From assembly GCA_015055965.1 (NCBI GenBank), contig SVHG01000004.1, positions 1-64,000 of the forward strand: 64,000 nucleotides of DNA, given 5' to 3'. The stretch's first letter is position 1. Each line of letters starts with the position of its first letter. Shown here piece after piece: positions 2,544-40,056 of this stretch. The position numbers and the translations under genes were made by a program. This DNA is from Clostridiales bacterium (lineage in GTDB: Bacteria; Bacillota; Clostridia; Christensenellales; Borkfalkiaceae). The notes beneath the pieces were generated by a model. That model worked only from the letters and a program-made list of their open reading frames with translations, did no database searches and was not told the origin of the DNA.

Positions 2544-2839
2544 AGCTCAAATCTCCTTTGGTCATATTGTATCATATACTTATTAAAATTTCAACTATTT
2601 TCCCTTTTTTTATTCACCTCATAGCAACTTTACTGCAGAAAACAAAATGAATCACACCTATTCCCTGTAACGTAAAAATACCCCCGTTTTACAGCGGAGG
2701 CATTTTAGAAATTATTGAATTTGCACGATAACCAAATGAACGGAAACGGCGCGAACACCACCTGCTAACGGATGTATTTACAAATTTAAGGGCTGGCGGT
2801 TTTTTCTTCCGCCAGCCCTTTTTTTGTGTTTATTAATGA
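2544..2839. other. Intergenic region upstream of CoADR gene
   Basis: Holds no gene I can support. It contains an imperfect hairpin at 2675-2706 (AAAATACCCCCG against CGGAGGCATTTT) and the strong terminator at 2788-2820. Between them (2722-2783, minus strand) is a 20-codon open stretch ending in VHLVIVQIQ and a stop; it could be the relic of the 3' end of a lost gene but is too short to call. Confidence 0.5.
2788..2820. terminator. Bidirectional-type terminator, copy 1 of a duplicated 37-base hairpin
   Basis: A 12-bp perfect stem, AAGGGCTGGCGG (2788-2799) with CCGCCAGCCCTT (2809-2820), and a nine-base loop; runs of A and T on both sides. It lies 20 bases beyond the stop of the kinase-like gene and so ends the 7.7-to-2.8 kb operon. 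The sequence from TTAAGGG to CCCTTTT, loop included, is identical to the hairpin at 7878-7910. Confidence 0.92.
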
Positions 2840-4036
2840 TTAGTATGGGAAAAGATCTAAGTAAAATTTTCTATTGCAATTAGGATAAGCTAATTCAAAC
2901 TCATCAATAGCATCTATGATTTTACTTTTATCAAATGCAACGACCTTTTCTACAAAACCCATAAATTGAGGAATGATTTTTCTTGCATCCTTCCAATAAT
3001 AGTCAATTATTTCGTTAAGATGTGAAAAATAAAAATTCTCATTATCATACTTAAAGCGGTAACGGTAAGCGTGAGGATGGAAAATATGATAACACATTTT
3101 TCTTCCGCCAAATCTTAAATATCTAACGATAAATGATATTGCAATATCTTCATTATAATTCAAAGAAGGTTCTCCACCCCAAACCAACGTTTTTAAATTA
3201 GGAAAGCCACCCCACATAATCTCATGGCAATTATACCCTATTGGGTCATCATATATAGTGGTTAGATGCTCGCATGAAGAAAAGTCAAAATCAACTATTG
3301 GCGCGTTTATAATACTTTGCCACTTACCTTCCTTTAACATATTAATAACTACTTCTTTTCGCTTTGCATCTGCGCTTAAAACGTCCTTATTATCATCTAG
3401 GTAACGTTCCAAATAAAGATCAGGCAAGTAAATTACCATATTCTTAGTAGTAGCGTCCCTAAAAGGAACAATTGCTATTTTTTCAAACTTTTTAATTATG
3501 TAATCCAATTCTTCGCCAAGCTTTACGTAATCTAGGTCTTTAAACTGCATTACTTCTGCTAATATGAAAACGATATTTTTTAATTTGTTTTGAGGATAAA
3601 CGACGCTTTTATTACAGTCCTTTGCCCAAGCAATTAAGCCCTTTTGAATAGCAATTTGCCGATTTAAGCATTTTTCCTTAAGTTGCGTAAAAATTTGGCT
3701 AGCACATTCCTTTAAATTAGGCATTGTTTGTTCTATTTCCTTGAGATAAGCAAGCATATTGTATACTCTAATACCATCAAAATACTCAATATCTAAATAT
3801 GGAACTCCACATTCAAATCCATGACCTAAAATTTTGGGAATGCCCTGAATATCTTGTGCGCATAAGTAATCGATAACTTTTATTTCGTTCTTATATTCTT
3901 CCATAGAAGTATTATATTTACGCATAATCATATTTGATCGGCTAAGATTTTTATCATCACGAAAAACCTTAATTTCTCTTTGATCCTTACATAAATCATC
4001 TTTAAAAATATCGATTAACTTTTTCGAAATATCCAT
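2840..4036 (-). CDS. APH/choline-kinase-like phosphotransferase, last gene of the TIR-fusion operon
   Basis: A 398-residue protein with a protein-kinase-like fold of the aminoglycoside phosphotransferase/choline kinase type. Candidate motifs: ATP-lysine in MIMRK (K40), an alpha-C Glu in EYKNEIKVI, hinge-like YLDIEYFDG (80-88), a catalytic-loop equivalent RDATTKN with D194 and N199 in the D-x4-N spacing, and the metal-binding IVDFDF (D249, D251). The usual His before the loop Asp is replaced (PFRD). Residues that matter for phosphotransfer are therefore mostly kept, so it may be active on a small molecule. It starts two bases after the TIR-SIR2-eIF2B gene, implying translational coupling and a shared function. 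The substrate is unknown. Confidence 0.7.
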   Translation of the reverse strand: MDISKKLIDIFKDDLCKDQREIKVFRDDKNLSRSNMIMRKYNTSMEEYKNEIKVIDYLCAQDIQGIPKILGHGFECGVPYLDIEYFDGIRVYNMLAYLKEIEQTMPNLKECASQIFTQLKEKCLNRQIAIQKGLIAWAKDCNKSVVYPQNKLKNIVFILAEVMQFKDLDYVKLGEELDYIIKKFEKIAIVPFRDATTKNMVIYLPDLYLERYLDDNKDVLSADAKRKEVVINMLKEGKWQSIINAPIVDFDFSSCEHLTTIYDDPIGYNCHEIMWGGFPNLKTLVWGGEPSLNYNEDIAISFIVRYLRFGGRKMCYHIFHPHAYRYRFKYDNENFYFSHLNEIIDYYWKDARKIIPQFMGFVEKVVAFDKSKIIDAIDEFELAYPNCNRKFYLDLFPY

Positions 4037-4038
4037 TT

Positions 4039-6306
4039 TTAACCACCTTTTGTTTTATCAACCAGCACGATATCTACGTCTATGTTTTTGCATTGAATGC
4101 TGGATTTTTCACTAACTAAAACTACTCCGTCATAAAATCTGCAAAAATCATAACCTATATTTTGAGTATTAATATTTTCATTCTTTGCCCATAATGCAAA
4201 TTTAAAATTATTATATATGGTTATTTCATGACCGTAAGATATCTCATATTTTAATGAGTCCCCTTCTTTTATGGCTTCCGTAAATTTACCGGTTTCTGCA
4301 ACGACGCAAACAGGTATTCCCTTTTCTTTTGCATAATTTAACAAGCCTGCCGTTCCGCAAGTATTAATAAAGCTTATCGGATTTTCTTGATATAAAACTA
4401 TATCGTGAGCGCCAAGAACCACAAGATCAATCAATCCCCTACTCATCATGTTAAATGCAGCCATATCTGGAATTATGGTTATATTATAAGAAGAATTGCT
4501 TTCTTTTAACAACTGACAGGTATTTTTAGCATCTCTAAAAGGCTCGTCACTTTTAGGGCGACATTCACAAATCCAAAGATTGCTATTCTTTTTAAACTCT
4601 TCACTTGCGCCGTTTAAATATTCAACAACTCTTAGACTTTGAGAATATAATAAAATATTACTTCCTTTACAATCCGTTAAGTTATTCTTGCCTTGCTTTC
4701 TTATTCCTTTGGAAATCTGACTCCTTTCCATTTTTACCTGTTGAACTATGAGTTCTAAGTCTTCTATAGAGTCAATCTCTCCCTCCGCAAGCTCTGCCTT
4801 AATTTTTAGCCAACACTTTTCAAAGGCGTTAAAATTAGGTTTAATTGCTTTTAAACAGCTAACGTTCTTATCGTATTTTTCTATTATTTTTTCAAGAGAC
4901 ATACGACTGCGAACGTCAAAATAAAGCTGTTCAAGTAATAACTTTATTGCTTGCGTTTCCGTTGGTGTTGCCGCGATTTTAAACAAGTCAACAACAAATT
5001 TATTATCGCCGTCGTTCATGTTTAATAATTTTTTAAATAATTCGTTTGAGGTTTCCATTTTATTGGCAAACGCCTCGGTAGAAATATTTATAACTGTAAA
5101 ACGGTTTTCTTTATCGTAAAAGAATGCTGGATATTCGCTATTATCCACTATTGCAATATTATTAGTACAAGTAAAGAAATCATCCCCTAACAGTTTACGA
5201 AGAGTAGCGCCAACTCTCTTATATCCATCATATTTATCATTGTAGCCTATGTACAAAATTCTACGCCCCGTTAATAGCATCTTTAATAGTGATGCAATTA
5301 TAGCGTTATCAATATTACAGTCATCAGTCCAAACGTTACTGCGTTTTAATTCAAACACGGGTATTTGCCCGTCTTGAAGATTTAAAGAATAAATATCCTG
5401 CTCTTCTCTAATTAAGGCGCTTTCCTTCCCTGCAAGCTGAATGGCTTTATCTATACGCGAATATTCATCCGTTGTTAAAAACGCCGCGAAGGGAAACTTG
5501 GAAAAATGTTGTATATATCTTGGTATTGAATCTTCAAAAAATGTTTTATTTAATGCGTCTTCTAAATGATTGCGCCCCCTATTTAATAGGCTTTCACAAC
5601 GTTCAAAAAAGGTAGAACCTACCCCCTCTGAAAAATTCAAGCATAATTCGTTTAGGGTTGGGCCTAATACAGCTACACAGTTTTGCGCAAACATTTCGTT
5701 TTCTATTTCAATAAAAATTTCTTTTAACTTTTTTGCGTCAACCTCTGCGCTTTCTGCCTTTTTTGCTGCGTGATCTAAATCCCATTTGTTTTGAATTTGA
5801 ATTGCCGTATCCAACCATTTTACAATGGGAATATATTTCCCATCTGAAGACTGATAATCACTCGCTAAAATATTGTTTAACGCATCCATACCGTATACTT
5901 GGTGAGCACAAAAGGCTCTTGCTTCCGCAGAATCTTTATCCTGACCGCAGTACACGAAATTTAACGTTTGTGGCGATTTTAAACCAGCGTTAACCTGAGT
6001 TTTAAAGGTGGACATTTCTACGTAAAGCTGATAAGGTTCGGGTGCTCCTGCAACGGTACGCTCTTTAGAAATCAAACCATTATTATCCAACAAAACACTT
6101 TGATTAAGAACGACCAACATTGTTCGGCTTTCTATTATAGACTTAGGTGTTTCAGCCCAAGAAGATCCGTCTTTTTCTTCAAAGATATAAACTGAATACC
6201 CCTTTGAACGTAAAAACGTTGCTATTTTTTTTGCTTCTGCATATGATCCATTTTGGGCATATGTGCCATGGTATGCAATAAATATATCGTTTACATATTG
6301 TGGCAT
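4039..6306 (-). CDS. Three-domain fusion: TIR + SIR2-like + eIF2B-alpha-like
   Basis: A 755-residue cytosolic protein with no signal or membrane segment. Residues 5-165 read as a TIR domain: IFIAYHGTY strand, SYAEAKKIATFLRSKGYSVYIFEE, SIIESRTMLVVLNQS, and E97 in LYVEM at the usual place of the NAD-cleaving Glu. Residues about 195-430 look like a SIR2_2-type Rossmann domain (VAVLGPTLNE, FLTTDEYSRID, RRILYIGYN), but the Asn of TTN is Asp and the catalytic His is absent (VFELKR). Residues about 515-735 match the eIF2B-alpha/ribose-bisphosphate isomerase family (CECRP at 580-584, ITIIPDMAAFNMM, VVLGAHDI, VVAETGKF), without the isomerase Cys and Asp. Inference: a TIR NADase controlled by nucleotide- and sugar-phosphate-sensing domains. 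AAGGAG precedes the start at 6306. Confidence 0.8.
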   Translation of the reverse strand: MPQYVNDIFIAYHGTYAQNGSYAEAKKIATFLRSKGYSVYIFEEKDGSSWAETPKSIIESRTMLVVLNQSVLLDNNGLISKERTVAGAPEPYQLYVEMSTFKTQVNAGLKSPQTLNFVYCGQDKDSAEARAFCAHQVYGMDALNNILASDYQSSDGKYIPIVKWLDTAIQIQNKWDLDHAAKKAESAEVDAKKLKEIFIEIENEMFAQNCVAVLGPTLNELCLNFSEGVGSTFFERCESLLNRGRNHLEDALNKTFFEDSIPRYIQHFSKFPFAAFLTTDEYSRIDKAIQLAGKESALIREEQDIYSLNLQDGQIPVFELKRSNVWTDDCNIDNAIIASLLKMLLTGRRILYIGYNDKYDGYKRVGATLRKLLGDDFFTCTNNIAIVDNSEYPAFFYDKENRFTVINISTEAFANKMETSNELFKKLLNMNDGDNKFVVDLFKIAATPTETQAIKLLLEQLYFDVRSRMSLEKIIEKYDKNVSCLKAIKPNFNAFEKCWLKIKAELAEGEIDSIEDLELIVQQVKMERSQISKGIRKQGKNNLTDCKGSNILLYSQSLRVVEYLNGASEEFKKNSNLWICECRPKSDEPFRDAKNTCQLLKESNSSYNITIIPDMAAFNMMSRGLIDLVVLGAHDIVLYQENPISFINTCGTAGLLNYAKEKGIPVCVVAETGKFTEAIKEGDSLKYEISYGHEITIYNNFKFALWAKNENINTQNIGYDFCRFYDGVVLVSEKSSIQCKNIDVDIVLVDKTKGG

Positions 6307-6324: not shown

Positions 6325-7008
6325 TTATTTTCTTTCTATAGTTATATCTGCAGTATATGAGGTTTTTCTTTCTAACACGTTAAACACTATAACTTTTGCA
6401 ACTTCTGCAGGATCCATAAATTTACTTACGTCAGGATTCAAACCACAATCAGGCTTCCAAAAAGCTGTTTGCATTCCACCAGGATATACCCCGATAACGT
6501 GAATATTTTTCTTTTTATAATAAGCCTTCATTGCCTCTGTAAATCCACGAACAGCCCATTTTGATGCGCAATATAGGCTTTCTTCTGCATTACCTTTTAA
6601 ACCCGCAGTTGAACTAATATTAATAATAGTTCCTCCTTCAATCATATTACGACAAGCCTCATATGAAATACACATTAATCCCACAACGTTACTGTTTATT
6701 ACGCTATTAATTTTTTGTATATCCATATCTACGGGAGCGCCAAAAATACCGATACCAGCGCAGTTATATAAATAATCAACGTAATATCCCTTTTTAGCTA
6801 AATCAGAAAAAACGTTTTTTACAAAAATTTCATCACATATATCTCCGCTATATCCAACTACTGTTCCGCCTACTTGCGCAATTGCGTTTTCTATTTTTTT
6901 AGCATCTCTTCCAATAATACAAACGTTTTGATTTTTACTAACAAGCTCTCTAGTTAATTCTAAACCAAGACCAGAAGCGCCACCTGTTACAATACTAATT
7001 CTTTCCAT
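6325..7008 (-). CDS. Short-chain dehydrogenase/reductase in the TIR-fusion operon
   Basis: A 227-residue classical SDR. The nucleotide site GGASGLG (9-15), the NCAG motif (82-85) and the catalytic Ser132/133, Tyr146 and Lys150 (NISS...YCASK) are all present, so it should be an active NAD(P)-dependent alcohol or carbonyl oxidoreductase. The substrate is not evident. The gene starts behind AGGAGG, ends 18 bases before the TIR-SIR2-eIF2B gene, and has its own likely promoter (7048-7076). An NAD(P)-using enzyme next to a probable NAD-cleaving one is notable. Confidence 0.88.
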   Translation of the reverse strand: MERISIVTGGASGLGLELTRELVSKNQNVCIIGRDAKKIENAIAQVGGTVVGYSGDICDEIFVKNVFSDLAKKGYYVDYLYNCAGIGIFGAPVDMDIQKINSVINSNVVGLMCISYEACRNMIEGGTIINISSTAGLKGNAEESLYCASKWAVRGFTEAMKAYYKKKNIHVIGVYPGGMQTAFWKPDCGLNPDVSKFMDPAEVAKVIVFNVLERKTSYTADITIERK

Positions 7009-7104: not shown

Positions 7105-7722
7105 TTATATCATCCATAATAGCTCCGTTAAAGTTCTTATTTCATTTAGATTTAACGGCTCGTTTTCATTTCTATTTACGCGATAACATTTAATTCCTGC
7201 GTTATTAGCAAATTCCACGTCCGTAAGGCTATCCCCCACGTAAACACATTCATTTTTATTACACGATAATTCTTTTATACATTTTATTAATCCTTCCGGA
7301 TGCGGTTTTCTTCGTTTAACGTCATCACAACACAAAATAATTCTAAATAATTCTTTTTTTATATTATGAAACCGCAAGATTTGTTCCACACACTTCCTAT
7401 CTTTATTAGTAACGATTGATAAGCACCTCGTTTTAGAAAGTTCAGTTAATAGGTTAACTGTGTCATTATATAAAACAGACATTTCCGCCATTTTTTTATG
7501 TGAATAATAATAAAAAACTCTTTCAAATTCTGCATATTCTATAAGTGGATTTTTAATACGCAAATAAGTTGCATCTAAAAACTCCCCCATATATTTTGGC
7601 AAATCAAAACGTGAAAAATCTCCACCTGCAGCCAGTATAGCTTTTTCATAACAAAATGCCGATCCCTTAGATGTATCTACCAACGTCATATCAAAATCAA
7701 ATATAATTTGTTTGAAATTCAT
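7105..7722 (-). CDS. HAD-superfamily phosphatase (phosphoglycolate phosphatase-like)
   Basis: A 205-residue HAD hydrolase with the four motifs in order: D9-x-D11-x-T13 (FDFDMT), Thr in SIVTNKD, Lys in KRRKPHP and the acidic GDSLTDVEFA. The alpha-helical cap between motifs 1 and 2 is of the C1 type seen in phosphoglycolate phosphatase and beta-phosphoglucomutase. The substrate is probably a small phosphorylated sugar or nucleotide. It is the first gene of the operon that contains the TIR fusion, with GAGG before the ATG and a promoter at 7788-7816. A sugar-phosphate phosphatase would fit the eIF2B-like sugar-phosphate-binding domain downstream. Confidence 0.88.
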   Translation of the reverse strand: MNFKQIIFDFDMTLVDTSKGSAFCYEKAILAAGGDFSRFDLPKYMGEFLDATYLRIKNPLIEYAEFERVFYYYSHKKMAEMSVLYNDTVNLLTELSKTRCLSIVTNKDRKCVEQILRFHNIKKELFRIILCCDDVKRRKPHPEGLIKCIKELSCNKNECVYVGDSLTDVEFANNAGIKCYRVNRNENEPLNLNEIRTLTELLWMI

Positions 7723-7787: not shown

Positions 7788-7816
7788 AGTATACCAAAAA
7801 AATATTCAATAGTCAA
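7788..7816 (-). promoter_or_regulatory. Promoter of the HAD-SDR-TIR fusion-kinase operon
   Basis: TTGACT (7811-7816) and TATACT (7788-7793) on the minus strand with a 17-base spacer. It lies just downstream of the terminator at 7878-7910, so the operon is transcriptionally separate from the aconitase X genes. Confidence 0.7.
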
Positions 7817-7877
7817 TACCCACAGCGCAATTTTTACTATAAACGTATAAGCAAAGTGTACAAAATGAAAAAAAATT

Positions 7878-7910
7878 AAGGGCTGGCGGTTTTTTCTTCC
7901 GCCAGCCCTT
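7878..7910. terminator. Terminator, copy 2 of the duplicated hairpin
   Basis: The same 12-bp stem and nine-base loop as at 2788-2820. It lies 79 bases beyond the stop of the aconitase X small subunit and ends that operon on the minus strand. The two copies bracket the four-gene operon exactly. Confidence 0.92.
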
Positions 7911-7988
7911 TTGCTGTTTTTATAAATTAAAGTTAATAACGTTATTGTTTGTAAACCGTATTTCTAGCAAGGCTATATGCTTTATGCC

Positions 7989-8432
7989 TTATTCTACTTC
8001 TACGATACCGTCAGGCTTAACTGTAATTTTCATGCCGTCCTTAACGTAATTAAGGAAATCATCCCCTAATTGGTCAACTACCGGCATAGTAACGCCATCT
8101 ACCCAAACGTCAGCTAAAACTGCCCCTGCTGCGGCAAGTGAATCTATACTGTTAGAAAATAACATACACGCGGGATTTTTCTTCATAGCACAAGCGCAAT
8201 ATAATACTAATCCACCCGTGGTAGAGCCTATAGTTTGCGGTAAGCATAAAGCCTTATTAATTAATGGCTTTCCGTAAAGCTCTTTATTGCTTTGATCCCC
8301 ACACTTTACTTCCTTATCGCCAAACTGTAACGCCATTTGTAAAGAAGCAAGCGTATTAAAGCCCTCTTTAGTTACAACAGCTTCAGCCGTTACCTCACCG
8401 GGAGTTACAACTCTTCCTTTAAACTGCTTCAT
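7989..8432 (-). CDS. Aconitase X small (swivelling) subunit, DUF126
   Basis: A 147-residue protein of the aconitase X swivelling-domain family. The block LPQTIGSTTGGLVLYCA carries the conserved Ser/Gly segment that completes the active site with the large subunit. Families known from experiment are the archaeal phosphomevalonate dehydratase and bacterial cis-3-hydroxy-L-proline dehydratase; which reaction this pair performs cannot be read from sequence. Its ATG overlaps the stop of the large-subunit gene by one base, so the two are translationally coupled. The gene is followed by the terminator at 7878-7910. Confidence 0.9.
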   Translation of the reverse strand: MKQFKGRVVTPGEVTAEAVVTKEGFNTLASLQMALQFGDKEVKCGDQSNKELYGKPLINKALCLPQTIGSTTGGLVLYCACAMKKNPACMLFSNSIDSLAAAGAVLADVWVDGVTMPVVDQLGDDFLNYVKDGMKITVKPDGIVEVE

Positions 8433-9706
8433 TATTTTTTACCTCCCGTAATAATAGTAAGAATTTCCGCATCGGTATAATATCTAGCGCTAGTATATGT
8501 ACGAAGCTTATTAGATGAGGTTATTACCGGCATTTTTTTGCAAAGGGGGTTATTCATATACATTAATGGGCAAATGTAAGAGGTAATAACGCCGGTTTCT
8601 TTAAGTCTTGCGGCGTATTCGGTTTTCTCAAAAGCCTCAAGAACAGCGGGCGCTGCGGTAAATACCGTGTTTATAACAACCTTCTTTTTGCCGTTATTTT
8701 TAAGCTCAAGTTCTATTTTTTGTGTCCAATCCTTAAGCTGTTCAAGTGATAAATGGGGGCAACCAACGAAGCAAAGCTTTGGCTTCGCATCGGGATTTTT
8801 CCATATTACGGGATAGTTATTCTTTACTCTTTCAAGCTCGGCGTCGTCAATTACGTATTCCTTAGCGCCTTCTGCTATAAGCTCTTCGCCAAGCTCAACG
8901 GCTTCCGGGGTAAGGTTTGCAATATGGTAAAGACCTACTGCGCCGTTTGATGCAGTTGCCGCGCCAAAGTCCTTTAAGTATGCGCAAGCAGAGCTGTTAA
9001 GCTCGCTACCAATCCACTTATCAAGCCCAACGACGTAAGGAACGTCTTCCATAACCTTCATACCGATAGCAGAGCCTAATAGCTGAGCTTCAGGCTTTTT
9101 GGTGGTTTGAATTTTAACCACCCAAGTAGCCCTTCTACCCTCGTCGGTAAGAAGTCCAAAATAGGGAACGTAACCAACGATAGAGCCCATAATATCTATA
9201 ATACCGGAGTTTCTGTTGCATCTTGCGCCAAGCACGGAATTTGCATAAACAACGGCGCTGGATTCCGCCCAAGAAAGAACGTCACCCTTTTTAGGCTTGT
9301 TGCCAACCTCATCCATATAACAGGTGCAGGTAAAGGCGTTTTTATCTAAAAGGCCAAGCTTGTTAAGCTGTTCTTCATAAAAGCCCTGCTTCGTGTACAT
9401 GAAATTGTTAAAAACGAAATTTTGTAAAAGGTTTGCAGGCACGTTTTTATCTAAGGGACGCGGATCAACGGAAAACTTTTGTTCTGAACAAACGCCAGCA
9501 TCTAAAAGCTGTTGCATTAAATCGTATACCGGCGACATAACCTTAAGACCGAAAGAGGTTACTAAATGATTATATTTTGAGGTGATAGGCACTAGCTTTT
9601 CTGCCCCAAAGGCATCACCGTACATCACTAACGTCTTCATAACCTTTGCAAGCGTTTCACCCTTTTCGCCGTTAAGAATGGCTTGCTGTTCCTGTGTAAG
9701 TATCAT
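8432..9706 (-). CDS. Aconitase X large (catalytic) subunit, DUF521
   Basis: A 424-residue protein matching the aconitase X catalytic-domain family, separate from the swivelling subunit (two-gene form). Candidate iron-sulfur ligands are Cys residues in FTCTCYMDEVGNKPKKGD, GARCNRNSGI and FVGCPHLSLEQL, in that order, as expected for the family's [4Fe-4S] or Fe-containing dehydratase centre. The VAVYANSVLGAR-like region and GFEE-type loops fit. It is the fifth gene of the run that starts at the marR promoter, though a 144-base gap before it leaves room for a promoter of its own. Neighbouring old yellow enzyme suggests a dehydration-then-reduction pathway. Confidence 0.9.
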   Translation of the reverse strand: MILTQEQQAILNGEKGETLAKVMKTLVMYGDAFGAEKLVPITSKYNHLVTSFGLKVMSPVYDLMQQLLDAGVCSEQKFSVDPRPLDKNVPANLLQNFVFNNFMYTKQGFYEEQLNKLGLLDKNAFTCTCYMDEVGNKPKKGDVLSWAESSAVVYANSVLGARCNRNSGIIDIMGSIVGYVPYFGLLTDEGRRATWVVKIQTTKKPEAQLLGSAIGMKVMEDVPYVVGLDKWIGSELNSSACAYLKDFGAATASNGAVGLYHIANLTPEAVELGEELIAEGAKEYVIDDAELERVKNNYPVIWKNPDAKPKLCFVGCPHLSLEQLKDWTQKIELELKNNGKKKVVINTVFTAAPAVLEAFEKTEYAARLKETGVITSYICPLMYMNNPLCKKMPVITSSNKLRTYTSARYYTDAEILTIITGGKK

Positions 9707-9850
9707 TTTTTTCTCCTTTAACTAGTTTATTAAAAATAGTGATATCACAAACAACGGCTGATTCTTTAACAAATAAATATACAAATAACGAACTACTACG
9801 AAGTATATAAAGCTTCTTTTATCAACCGTTTATGTGATAAACCTTTAAAA

Positions 9851-11920
9851 TTACAGCTTCATACAAACCGTCCACGCACCCCAAATAACGCTGCGTAGGT
9901 TACCCACCTTTAAGGCGTCACCGATTACGTGTACGTGTTTACCCTTTGCTTCGATAGGAGCGGGATTATAGCCAACTGAAAGTATAACGGAATCTGTATC
10001 AACTGCAAAGGTATTGCCCTCTTTATTCTTTAAGGTTACGCTGCCCTCGTTTATTTCTAAAAGAGCCGTTTCTAGATGTACCGGAACTTTATTAGTTTTA
10101 AAGAAATCACGCAAATAGCTAGTATTTGCAAGACAAACACCCTTAGTAGTAATAAGATCGTCTTGCATTTCTACGATAGTGGGCTTTTTACCCTTTAAGT
10201 AAAGGTCATATGCAATTTCACAACCGGTAAGTCCACCGCCGATAATAACTACTCTATCGCCAACAGACTTGTTGCCAAGTAAGTAATCAACCGCTTCAAC
10301 TGCACTATCAGCGCCCTTAACGGGGATTCTTTTTGCAACTGCGCCCGTTGCTATAATAACCTCATCCGCATCAAGAGAATTAACCTCTTTAACTTCAGTA
10401 TTCATTTTTACTTCAATGGGGTATTTTGCAATTTCCCTAACGTACCACGCGATAAGAGCCCTATCCTTTTCCTTAAAAGAGGGAGCAGCTGCAGCAATAA
10501 ACACACCGCCAAGCTTATCACTCTTTTCATAAAGCGTTACCTTATGCCCGCGCTTTGCGCAAAGAATAGCCGCTTCCATACCGCCAATACCACCGCCGAT
10601 AACGGCAATTTTTTTAGGTTTTTTTGCCGGTTCAACGTAGTATTTCTTTGACTGCATAGTTTCGGGATTAAGCGCGCAACGAGCAAGCCCCATAGTATCG
10701 GTAAGATCTTGAGTGTTTGCATGGCCCTTTGAAGAAGAGAAATTAAAGCAACCGCTATGACAGCAAATACAGGGCTTAATATCATCTAATCTATCTTCAA
10801 TTAGCTTAGTAATCCATTGGGGATCAACAAGGAATTGGCGAGCAACGCCAACTGCGTCAATCTTGCCTTCTGCAACCGCTTTTGCGCCAACCTCGGCATC
10901 CATTCTTCCCGCGCAAACAACGGGTATATCTACGAATTTTTTAATGTGAGCTACGTCTTCTAGGTTGCAGTTTTCAGGCATATACATAGGCGGATGAGCC
11001 CAATACCAAGAATCGTAAGTACCGTTATCTGCGTTAAGCATATCGTAGCCTGCATCCTGCAGATATTTAGCCGCCCTTTCTGACTCTTCCATATTACGGC
11101 CTACTTCAACGTAATCCTCGCCGGGCATAGCTCCTTCACAGAAGCCCTTCATTTTTGATTGAACTGAATAACGAAGTGATACGGGATAATCCTCTCCGCA
11201 GGCTTCCTTAATAGCCTTAACTACCTCTGCGGCAAAGCGATAACGGTTTTCAAAGCTTCCACCGTATTCGTCGGTACGCTTGTTAAAGAATTCTATTGAA
11301 AATTGGTCTAATAAATATCCTTCGTGAACGGCGTGTACTTCAACGCCGTCTACCCCTGCTTCCTTACAAAGCTTAGCGGTTTTAGCAAAGGCTTCAATTA
11401 TCTCGTGAATTTGCTCTACCGTCATTTCCGGGCATTCAATATCGTGCGCCCAACGCGAAGGCTGTGGAGAGGGAGAAGCTAACTCGTGACTGGTGTCGAT
11501 TATAGGCTTAATAAGTGCGCGGGTAAATTTATTTTTATGTAAGGGGGCTATAAGCTCCGTAATAGCCCATGAACGGCCCATACCTGCCGTAAGCTGAACA
11601 AACAGCTTTGCGCCGGTTTTATGGATTTCATCCATAAACACCTTAAGATCCTTGAACATTTTCTTGTTCTGCCAAAGCCATTTACCCCAAAAAGTATCGC
11701 GAAGAGGTGCAATACCGGGAATAATAAGACCTACGTTGTTCTTTGCTCTTTCAAGGAAAAGCTTAGCAGCTTCCTTATCAAAATGACAGCCGGTAAGCTC
11801 AAACCAACCGAATAAGGACGTTCCACCCATAGGACACATTACGATTCGATTTTTAATCTCTACGTTTCTGATTTTCCAAGGCGTGAACAAAGGACTGTAT
11901 TTTTCGTTAGTAGTGCTCAT
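9851..11920 (-). CDS. FadH/BaiCD-type NADH:flavin oxidoreductase (old yellow enzyme + [4Fe-4S] + FAD domains)
   Basis: A 689-residue multidomain reductase. Residues 1-360 form an FMN-binding TIM barrel (MCPMGG, HAVHEGYLLDQF, KRTDEYGGSFENRYRF, VARQFLVDP). A CxxCxxxC cluster (CICCHSGC) and a fourth Cys in LARCALNP bind a [4Fe-4S]. The C-terminal half has two Rossmann motifs, IAVIGGGIGGMEAA and VVIIGGGLTGCEIA, for FAD and NAD(P)H. This architecture is shared by 2,4-dienoyl-CoA reductase, trimethylamine dehydrogenase, 2-enoate reductase and the bile-acid enzymes BaiCD/BaiH. The substrate here is unknown, but an alpha,beta-unsaturated acid or CoA ester is likely. It sits 26 bases downstream of the GtrA-like gene. 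Confidence 0.92.
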   Translation of the reverse strand: MSTTNEKYSPLFTPWKIRNVEIKNRIVMCPMGGTSLFGWFELTGCHFDKEAAKLFLERAKNNVGLIIPGIAPLRDTFWGKWLWQNKKMFKDLKVFMDEIHKTGAKLFVQLTAGMGRSWAITELIAPLHKNKFTRALIKPIIDTSHELASPSPQPSRWAHDIECPEMTVEQIHEIIEAFAKTAKLCKEAGVDGVEVHAVHEGYLLDQFSIEFFNKRTDEYGGSFENRYRFAAEVVKAIKEACGEDYPVSLRYSVQSKMKGFCEGAMPGEDYVEVGRNMEESERAAKYLQDAGYDMLNADNGTYDSWYWAHPPMYMPENCNLEDVAHIKKFVDIPVVCAGRMDAEVGAKAVAEGKIDAVGVARQFLVDPQWITKLIEDRLDDIKPCICCHSGCFNFSSSKGHANTQDLTDTMGLARCALNPETMQSKKYYVEPAKKPKKIAVIGGGIGGMEAAILCAKRGHKVTLYEKSDKLGGVFIAAAAPSFKEKDRALIAWYVREIAKYPIEVKMNTEVKEVNSLDADEVIIATGAVAKRIPVKGADSAVEAVDYLLGNKSVGDRVVIIGGGLTGCEIAYDLYLKGKKPTIVEMQDDLITTKGVCLANTSYLRDFFKTNKVPVHLETALLEINEGSVTLKNKEGNTFAVDTDSVILSVGYNPAPIEAKGKHVHVIGDALKVGNLRSVIWGAWTVCMKL

Positions 11921-34413: not shown

Positions 34414-34442
34414 TTGACATATATTATATTTGGTGGTATAAT
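34414..34442 (+). promoter_or_regulatory. Promoter for riboswitch-nucleoside kinase
   Basis: Consensus TTGACA (34414-34419) and TATAAT (34437-34442) with a 17-base spacer. The expected start, about 34449, lies just before the purine riboswitch. Confidence 0.9.
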
Positions 34443-34457
34443 AGCCTTTGCACCACT

Positions 34458-34518
34458 CGGTATATACTTGCAATACGGGCAAGAGTTTCTACAAGCCACC
34501 TTAAATGGTTAACTACCG
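34458..34518 (+). ncRNA. Purine riboswitch aptamer, guanine-type (C74)
   Basis: The 61-base element follows the purine-riboswitch plan: P1 CGGTA/TACCG, J1/2 TATA, P2 CTTGC/GCAAG with L2 AATACGG, J2/3 AGTTTCTACA, P3 AGCCA/TGGTT with L3 CCTTAAA, and J3/1 AAC. The loop-loop and core bases (ATAnGG, GTTTCTAC, CCnTAAA) are those of the xpt class. The specificity base in J3/1 is C, as in guanine/hypoxanthine sensors; adenine sensors have T. It lies in the leader of the nucleoside kinase gene. A possible expression-platform hairpin (CTTTAC 34526-34531 with GTAAAG 34553-34558, T run at 34566-34570) follows, but its strength is uncertain. Confidence 0.93.
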
Positions 34519-34604
34519 CAATCTACTTTACTTTATTAACGCGTTATAAGTGGTAAAGGTAAAAATTTTTAAACGAAATTAACCATAAGGAAGGTAAAAA
34601 ATAT

Positions 34605-38250: not shown

Positions 38251-38284
38251 AAAAATATGCCGTTAATCGCGCTATAGCGCAACT
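38251..38284 (-). repeat. Dispersed intergenic repeat, copy h
   Basis: On the minus strand: TTGCGCTATAGCGCGATTAA, then CGGCATATTTTT. It touches the stop of the ABC exporter gene and may serve as its weak terminator. Confidence 0.65.
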
Positions 38285-40056
38285 TATTCAGCTAAACTCT
38301 TAAATTGATATTTGTATAATTCGGAATATATTCCACCTTTTGCTAAAAGATTGGTATGAGTACCGCGCTCTGCCACACCCTCACTTGTAATTACGATAAT
38401 TTCATCCGCGTTTTTAATTGTGGAAAGACGGTGAGCTACCACTATGGTAGTTCTGCCCTCAGATAGCTTTTCTAAGCTTTCTTGAATTAACATTTCCGTT
38501 GCGTTATCAAGCGCACTGGTTGCTTCGTCTAAAATAAGAATGGGGGGATTTTTTAAAAACGCCCTTGCAATAGAAACGCGTTGCTTTTGTCCGCCGGAAA
38601 GCTTAACCCCGCGCTCACCAACGTAGGTATCGTAGCCGTTTGGTAAGCCCATTACGTATTCGTGAATATTTGCAAGCTTTGCAGCTTCAATAATATCTTC
38701 GTCGCTTGCATCAAAATTACCGTACGCTATATTTTCCTTAACAGTTCCACCGTATAGAAAAACGTCCTGCTGAACTATGCCGATATTTCTTCTTAAATCG
38801 GTTAAAGACATATCCTTAATATCTATGCCGTCAATTAAAATATTACCGCTATCAATTTCGTAAAATCTTGGGATTAGGTTGCAAAGAGTTGTTTTACCAC
38901 CGCCCGAAGGACCTACTAAAGCAACGGTGTGTCCCTTGGGAATATTTAAGTCCATATTATCGATAATCAACTTATTGGGGGACTTTTCATCTAAATCTTC
39001 ACTTTTATCGTAAGCAAAGCTAACCCCTTTAAATTGAATGTTTCCTTGTAAAACGTCAACCTTAATCTTTCCTTCGCTAAAGTCCTCCGGCTCTATTTCC
39101 ATAATCTCTTGGAAGCGCTTGAAGCCTGATAATCCCTCTTCTACCTGTTCAAATAAGGTAACGAAAGTTCTTATGGGGTTAATAAGCATAGAAATATAAA
39201 GAATGTAAGCAGTCATTTCGCCAGCGCCTATCTTGCCTATTGCAAAGAAGATACCGCCCGCGACCAAGGTTATAAGATACAACATATCGGTACATAAGTT
39301 CATTGAAGTATTAAACTTACTCATTACCAAATAGTTATTTTTTCTTGCCTTTTTAAATTCTTCGTTAGTTTGATTAAACTTTTCTATTTCGTGCTTTTCT
39401 GCGGTGTAAGATTTAGAAACTCTAATACCTGAAAGAGCGCTTTCTACCCCGGCGTTTATTAAAGAGGTCTTTTCCCTTGACTGACTGAATACGTCTAACA
39501 TCTTTTTACGCATACCTATAACGATTGCAAACATTACAGGTAAGAAAATTAATACCATCAACGAAAGCCATGGGTTAATGCCCAAAATCATTATTAGCGC
39601 GCCCACTATGGTTATTAAAGATATGAATAGGTTTTCCGGGCCGTGATGGGCAAGCTCTGCAACCTCGAATAGGTCGTTAACCAGTCTAGACATAACAGAG
39701 CCAACCTTGGTTTCGTCATAGTAAGAAAAGGGCAACTTTTCTAGATGCGAAAAGAGTTGAGCTCTCATATCCCCTTGCATACGCATCCCCACCAGATGTC
39801 CCCAATAGCTTACGCTAAAGTTTAAAAATGCCTTTAGTAAGAAGATTGCTAGCATTATTGCCCCAAAAAAGGCAACTGCCCTCCAATCCCCTGCGGGCGC
39901 GTGAATATCAATAATGTCGCCCGCTATGTAGGGATATATTAAATTGCAAAGCGCCATTAAAAGAGCGCAAAACATATCGAATGCAAAAGCGCCTTTATAG
40001 GGCTTATAGTAGCCCACGAACCGCCCTAATAGGCTTTTATTTTTGCCTTTAGCCAT
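38284..40056 (-). CDS. ABC exporter (fused membrane + ATPase, MsbA/LmrA-like half transporter)
   Basis: A 590-residue half transporter: six membrane helices in residues 15-310, then an ATPase with Walker A GPSGGGKTT, Q-loop VQQDVFL, signature LSGGQKQR, Walker B ILILDEATSALD and H-loop VAHRLST. It would work as a homodimer because no partner half is adjacent. Exported substrate unknown. Its start overlaps the end of the DUF4062-TPR gene by eight bases, so the two are translationally coupled. Confidence 0.93.
   Translation of the reverse strand: MAKGKNKSLLGRFVGYYKPYKGAFAFDMFCALLMALCNLIYPYIAGDIIDIHAPAGDWRAVAFFGAIMLAIFLLKAFLNFSVSYWGHLVGMRMQGDMRAQLFSHLEKLPFSYYDETKVGSVMSRLVNDLFEVAELAHHGPENLFISLITIVGALIMILGINPWLSLMVLIFLPVMFAIVIGMRKKMLDVFSQSREKTSLINAGVESALSGIRVSKSYTAEKHEIEKFNQTNEEFKKARKNNYLVMSKFNTSMNLCTDMLYLITLVAGGIFFAIGKIGAGEMTAYILYISMLINPIRTFVTLFEQVEEGLSGFKRFQEIMEIEPEDFSEGKIKVDVLQGNIQFKGVSFAYDKSEDLDEKSPNKLIIDNMDLNIPKGHTVALVGPSGGGKTTLCNLIPRFYEIDSGNILIDGIDIKDMSLTDLRRNIGIVQQDVFLYGGTVKENIAYGNFDASDEDIIEAAKLANIHEYVMGLPNGYDTYVGERGVKLSGGQKQRVSIARAFLKNPPILILDEATSALDNATEMLIQESLEKLSEGRTTIVVAHRLSTIKNADEIIVITSEGVAERGTHTNLLAKGGIYSELYKYQFKSLAE

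Follow-up and report, generated by a model that had tools for sequence, protein, structure and literature searches.

A cassette of four genes in the Clostridiales contig SVHG01000004.1, which belongs to a gut-type Clostridia genome, encodes a protein of 755 residues in which a TIR domain, a SIR2-like domain and an eIF2B-alpha-like domain follow one another, together with a kinase-like protein, a short-chain dehydrogenase (SDR) and a HAD-family phosphatase-like protein. We propose that the cassette is a TIR-type NAD-cleaving switch controlled by a metabolite sensor that resembles eIF2B-alpha and lacks catalytic activity, a reading to which slightly less than an even chance (about 0.45) is given. 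The window refers to the whole stretch of DNA that was analysed (64,000 nucleotides), and the coordinates of the cassette within it are collected in Table 1.

Table 1. Features of the cassette and its borders (positions in the window)
Feature	Position	Strand	Remarks
Hairpin/terminator-like direct repeat, downstream cassette end	2782..2837		91% identical to 7872-7927; fold z -7.1
Kinase-like protein	2840..4036	-	398 aa; 28% identity, 5e-31 to L027 fusion
TIR / SIR2-like / eIF2B-alpha-like protein	4039..6306	-	755 aa
eIF2B-alpha-like domain	4102..4986	-	about residues 441-735
SIR2-like (ThsA-like) domain	5017..5694	-	about residues 205-430; degenerate active site, D280 = N112 equivalent, His-Gly motif absent
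TIR domain	5797..6306	-	residues 1-170; FIAYHG motif (9-14) and putative catalytic-type E97; Pfam TIR_2 2.7e-4
Classical short-chain dehydrogenase (SDR)	6325..7008	-	adh_short 1.8e-43; 60% identical to SDR beside L028 homologue
HAD-family phosphatase-like protein	7105..7722	-	HAD_2 9.9e-35; 36% identity, upstream of SDR in L028 too
Promoter-like TTGACT-17-TATACT with TG	7788..7816	-	consensus match only; within cassette, upstream of HAD
Hairpin/terminator-like direct repeat, upstream cassette end	7872..7927		partner of 2782-2837

Domain organization and the TIR domain

The 755-residue protein is read from a single uninterrupted ORF of 755 codons on the minus strand (frame 1 of the plus strand is full of stops over the same interval) and is present as a single copy in its own genome. 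Pfam recognizes IF-2B at residues 519-720 (6.7e-18, above its cut-off) and TIR_2 at residues 8-72 (2.7e-4, below the curated cut-off), and gives no match in the middle part. The TIR assignment is strengthened by a relative from a Clostridia MAG (L027, contig CANQYT010000022), which matches TIR_2 at the cut-off (3.2e-6). The AlphaFold model of the whole protein is poor (pLDDT 44.7) and usable only in the eIF2B core.

In a search of 396 genomes of the order for relatives, a single Clostridiales MAG (L028, contig JAITOQ010000213) was found to encode TIR, SIR2-like and eIF2B-like domains in this order at 32-33% identity, in a homologue that is cut by the contig end. An assembly chimera is ruled out because this independent MAG carries the same domain order. 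An earlier note on this DNA had described three domains in the order TIR, SIR2-like, eIF2B-alpha-like, and this architecture is borne out by Pfam, relatives, PDB profile matches and Foldseek. That the first or third part might belong to another fold, or that the fusion might be an assembly error, had been named there as possible objections; the TIR and eIF2B-like folds stand, and the fusion recurs in L028.

TIR NADases are turned on by assembly and occur with many sensors. All 13 FIAYHG-type TIRs that were aligned, most of them at 13-27% identity, share the Glu at E97, whose position is presumably that at which TIR NADases carry the catalytic Glu of their C helix (the SARM1 Glu), the equivalence being taken from alignment position. 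E97 is a putative catalytic-type Glu of this kind, through which the TIR domain may cleave NAD.

The eIF2B-alpha-like domain

When the eIF2B-like segments of the four family members were compared with solved structures, human eIF2B-alpha was the best match (1.6e-10), followed by MtnA (3.6e-8) and ribose-1,5-bisphosphate (R15P) isomerase (7.8e-5). Foldseek on the eIF2B region of the AlphaFold model likewise returned eIF2B subunits (6.4e-9, probability 1.00) with R15P isomerase close behind, both groups scoring at about 1e-8. In R15P isomerase, a Cys and an Asp have catalytic roles, and the Cys-to-Ser form retains substrate binding (PMC5789824). These two residues align with S555 and H634 of the 755-residue protein, and none of the four members has Cys at the first position or Asp at the second, by which an active isomerase is ruled out on residues.

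Human eIF2B-alpha, on the other hand, is a proven non-catalytic sugar-phosphate sensor, in which ligand binding promotes assembly and A129, Y130, R132, G196, E198, N208 and K234 contact the sugar-phosphate (PMC8187479). By alignment, the fructose 6-phosphate (F6P) contacts G196, N208 and K234 are kept as G632, N648 and K674, and R132, E198, Y130 and A129 are changed, the phosphate contact R132 to L558 and the sugar contact E198 to H634. The Asn at N648 is found in all four members, and a Lys lies at or near K674 in the three that are long enough. This pattern fits a ligand-binding, non-catalytic domain with an altered ligand; since the R132 and E198 contacts are not kept, the ligand may differ or may not exist.

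The SIR2-like domain

The identity of the middle part was obtained through L028, in which it matches Pfam SIR2_2 above the cut-off (4.9e-11), the PADLOC model of ThsA from Thoeris (4e-11) and also the LmuA model. A joint profile of the two SIR2 parts retrieved ThsA-like chains from the PDB (1.2e-6 and 2.9e-4). It also matched, at 2.8e-6, an intact SIR2 protein from a different genome. ThsA requires Asn112 and His152 (PMC7272460). The equivalent of Asn112 is D280 in the 755-residue protein and Asn in L028, and at His152 the His-Gly segment is missing in the former and replaced by Phe-Gly in the latter. Because both ThsA-required residues are lost, the SIR2-like domain is probably not an NADase, and an active SIR2 NADase was rejected on these residues. 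The earlier SIR2-like call stands through L028 as a relation to the ThsA sirtuin, but NAD cleavage by this part is improbable. An immune-type protein that retains a sirtuin apparently devoid of catalytic activity is also a case open to direct testing.

Operon partners and relatives

In transcription order, the cassette comprises the genes for the HAD protein, the SDR, the TIR protein and the kinase-like protein, separated by gaps of 96, 18 and 2 nt. The three-domain ORF of the earlier note is real, but the unit is a four-gene cassette. In L028, the order is HAD, PvcA-like, SDR and TIR protein. The PvcA-like gene that separates HAD from SDR in that locus (L028:2648-3685), PvcA being an isonitrile synthase, is a weak Pfam match and has a distant relative in a biosynthetic-looking cluster of Rhizobium.

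Two further relatives, L027 and L078 (from the window's own family), are TIR-eIF2B-kinase-like fusions of 905 and 831 aa without a SIR2 part, so that the SIR2-like part is present in two of the four family members. The kinase-like part, which is a separate adjacent gene in the window, belongs in these two loci to the same polypeptide as TIR and eIF2B, and the three parts can thus be said to travel together. Because L027 and L078 join them without SIR2, the smallest unit that recurs consists of the TIR, eIF2B-like and kinase-like parts, to which the SIR2-like domain is an addition. In both fusions, the partner retained by TIR and eIF2B is the kinase-like part instead of the sirtuin. Upstream of the L027 fusion lies a YpsA-type SLOG gene (L027:3936-4520).

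All three kinase-like relatives contain an alpha-C-type Glu, a hinge-like G[IV]R, PFRD[AS]T.KN and FDF[SA]SC, the last two of which read PFRDATTKN and FDFSSC in the 398-aa protein. These motifs resemble the D-x4-N of the catalytic loop and the DFD-type metal motif of aminoglycoside-phosphotransferase-type kinases. Since Pfam APH reaches only 0.23 and the AlphaFold model is uninformative (no Foldseek match below 0.001), the 398-aa protein is called kinase-like rather than a kinase.

A first scan of genome contigs with the single protein as query found no relative. No further full-length member was detected in 391 genomes of the class with the kinase-like query or in 398 genomes of the phylum with the TIR protein as query, and the family is consequently rare. 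Among 141 genomes of the window's own bacterial family, only the genome of the window and one with a TIR-eIF2B-kinase fusion were positive, a patchy presence.

Several other TIR proteins were encountered in the course of these searches. A two-gene unit recurring in several families of this order (L029, L030 and L040-L044) consists of a FIAYHG-type TIR-DUF5919 fusion followed by an inositol-monophosphatase (IMPase) gene, with a HAD phosphatase often fused to the latter or following it; a literature search found no description of this unit. In L037 and L039, TIR proteins of 953-987 aa end in an HD_3 nucleotidase-type domain, with a NUDIX gene immediately downstream in L039, and L036 and L038 encode TIR proteins (about 920-950 aa) with weak AAA or NACHT matches past the TIR.

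Cassette borders and surroundings

The four cassette genes have a GC content of 0.31-0.35 and a GC3 of 0.20-0.29, whereas the directly flanking genes have 0.41-0.44 and 0.35-0.44, respectively. Both cassette ends carry a 56-nt direct repeat containing a perfect 33-nt hairpin, of which these are the only two copies in the 2.06 Mb assembly; it may be either a recombination site or simply a duplicated terminator. In a same-genus genome, the neighbouring AcnX genes are kept at 86% identity and the downstream region is different. No relative of the TIR protein was found in two same-genus genomes (one of them only 61% complete). Low GC, flanking hairpins and this absence fit a mobile accessory module, and the cassette appears to have been horizontally acquired. 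A phage or plasmid origin was rejected: searches of phages, plasmids and IMG/VR gave no relatives, and IMG/VR also lacks the hairpin.

No defence genes were found around the cassette, whose neighbours are metabolic, and the defence island that the earlier note had suggested looking for is not seen. Elsewhere in the window, aconitase X subunits adjoin a BaiCD-like flavoenzyme (7989-11920), a purine riboswitch is located at 34438-34535, and a 590-aa protein (38284-40056) matches PADLOC mad3 at residues 480-559 (1.3e-33).

Proposed mechanism and alternatives

Briefly, the TIR domain would be the effector, or the producer of an ADP-ribose-type signal. The eIF2B-alpha-like domain would form, together with the degenerate sirtuin of ThsA type, a non-catalytic platform to which a small sugar or nucleotide carrying phosphate would bind. 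This binding would alter dimerisation or assembly, as in eIF2B-alpha, and the change would unite the TIR domains and turn on NAD cleavage via E97. Making, removing or modifying the ligand or the TIR product would most likely fall to the kinase-like protein, the SDR and the HAD phosphatase. The domain homologies, the loss of catalytic residues, the retention of the TIR Glu and of three ligand contacts, and the limits of operon and cassette were observed; NAD cleavage, the nature of the ligand, activation through assembly, the roles of the accessory enzymes and a function in defence against phages or in dormancy under stress are inferred from them. The earlier suggestion that TIR activity is set by sensing is retained as far as a sugar-phosphate-type sensor is concerned, which the closeness to eIF2B-alpha and the invariance of E97 fit, but the SIR2-like part is probably not an NADase. 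Counting against an NADase switch are the metabolic neighbours in place of defence genes, the absence of a PADLOC match to the protein, the changed R132 and E198 contacts, the poor whole-protein model, the small number of members found (four) and the accessory enzymes, which could equally constitute a metabolic pathway.

In such a small-molecule pathway, NAD would be split by the TIR domain to give an ADP-ribose compound, from which the kinase-like, SDR and HAD proteins would produce a modified signal or toxin; the eIF2B-like and SIR2-like domains would do no more than bind intermediates. This pathway is considered unlikely. The three adjacent genes for phosphate/redox chemistry point to it, as do the SDR as the best conserved part (60%), the extra PvcA-like gene of L028 (itself a weak match) and the IMPase, HAD or NUDIX genes that adjoin other FIAYHG-type TIRs. 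However, no SDR or HAD gene lies beside the L027 and L078 fusions in the stretches read, so the TIR-eIF2B-kinase core can do without these two enzymes. The metabolic surroundings and the eIF2B-alpha similarity would also suit a housekeeping regulator of sugar-phosphate metabolism with the TIR domain as a scaffold rather than an immune enzyme; the patchy distribution, the low GC with flanking hairpins and the invariant TIR Glu make this quite unlikely. Finally, the 2-nt gap between the TIR and kinase-like genes indicates tight coupling, and together with the mobile-looking borders it recalls a toxin-antitoxin-like or element-stabilising module, in which a toxic TIR protein is restrained by the kinase-like or HAD protein. 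This is very unlikely: two relatives have the TIR protein and the kinase-like part in one fusion, an unusual arrangement for an antitoxin.

A more far-reaching and rather doubtful reading is that of a bacterial immune or stress receptor, in which a sugar-phosphate sensor of eIF2B-alpha type would monitor the metabolites of the cell and set off a TIR NADase upon any disturbance of their pool. In its logic, such a receptor would be the prokaryotic counterpart of metabolite sensing in the integrated stress response. Should the domain indeed sense sugar-phosphates or nucleotides, bacteria would here guard metabolism, not a phage protein, and if so, this guarding would use the fold by which eukaryotic translation senses sugar-phosphates.

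Comparison with known systems

The earlier note knew of no described defence protein with this combination, and its statement agrees with what was found: no PADLOC model matches the 755-residue protein, and open-licence papers, which are weak evidence of absence, yielded nothing relevant on TIR with eIF2B, ISOCOT or IMPase. A TIR-NADase-type system with an eIF2B-alpha-like sensor was nowhere found described, and the cassette would represent a new variant.

Thoeris (ThsB TIR and ThsA SIR2-SLOG) likewise brings a TIR and a ThsA-type sirtuin into one system, with NAD chemistry expected in both. However, ThsB and ThsA are separate proteins, whereas TIR and SIR2-like domains share one polypeptide here, and ThsA has an active SIR2, whose catalytic residues are lost in the 755-residue protein. 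The latter shows no match to SLOG or another known Thoeris sensor in Pfam or PADLOC and has the eIF2B-alpha-like domain in the place of SLOG, and its partners are the kinase-like, SDR and HAD proteins. SARM1 and the bacterial TIR NADases have the TIR fold and the catalytic-type Glu in common with the 755-residue protein, but differ in their sensor. With regard to the eIF2B-like domain, R15P isomerase and MtnA belong to the IF-2B fold family as well, yet carry the catalytic Cys and Asp where Ser and His are found here. Among solved structures, eIF2B-alpha is closest, with the isomerase residues absent there too and the N208 and K234 contacts in common, whereas the protein described here is bacterial, fused to TIR, changed at R132 and E198 and not part of a GEF complex.
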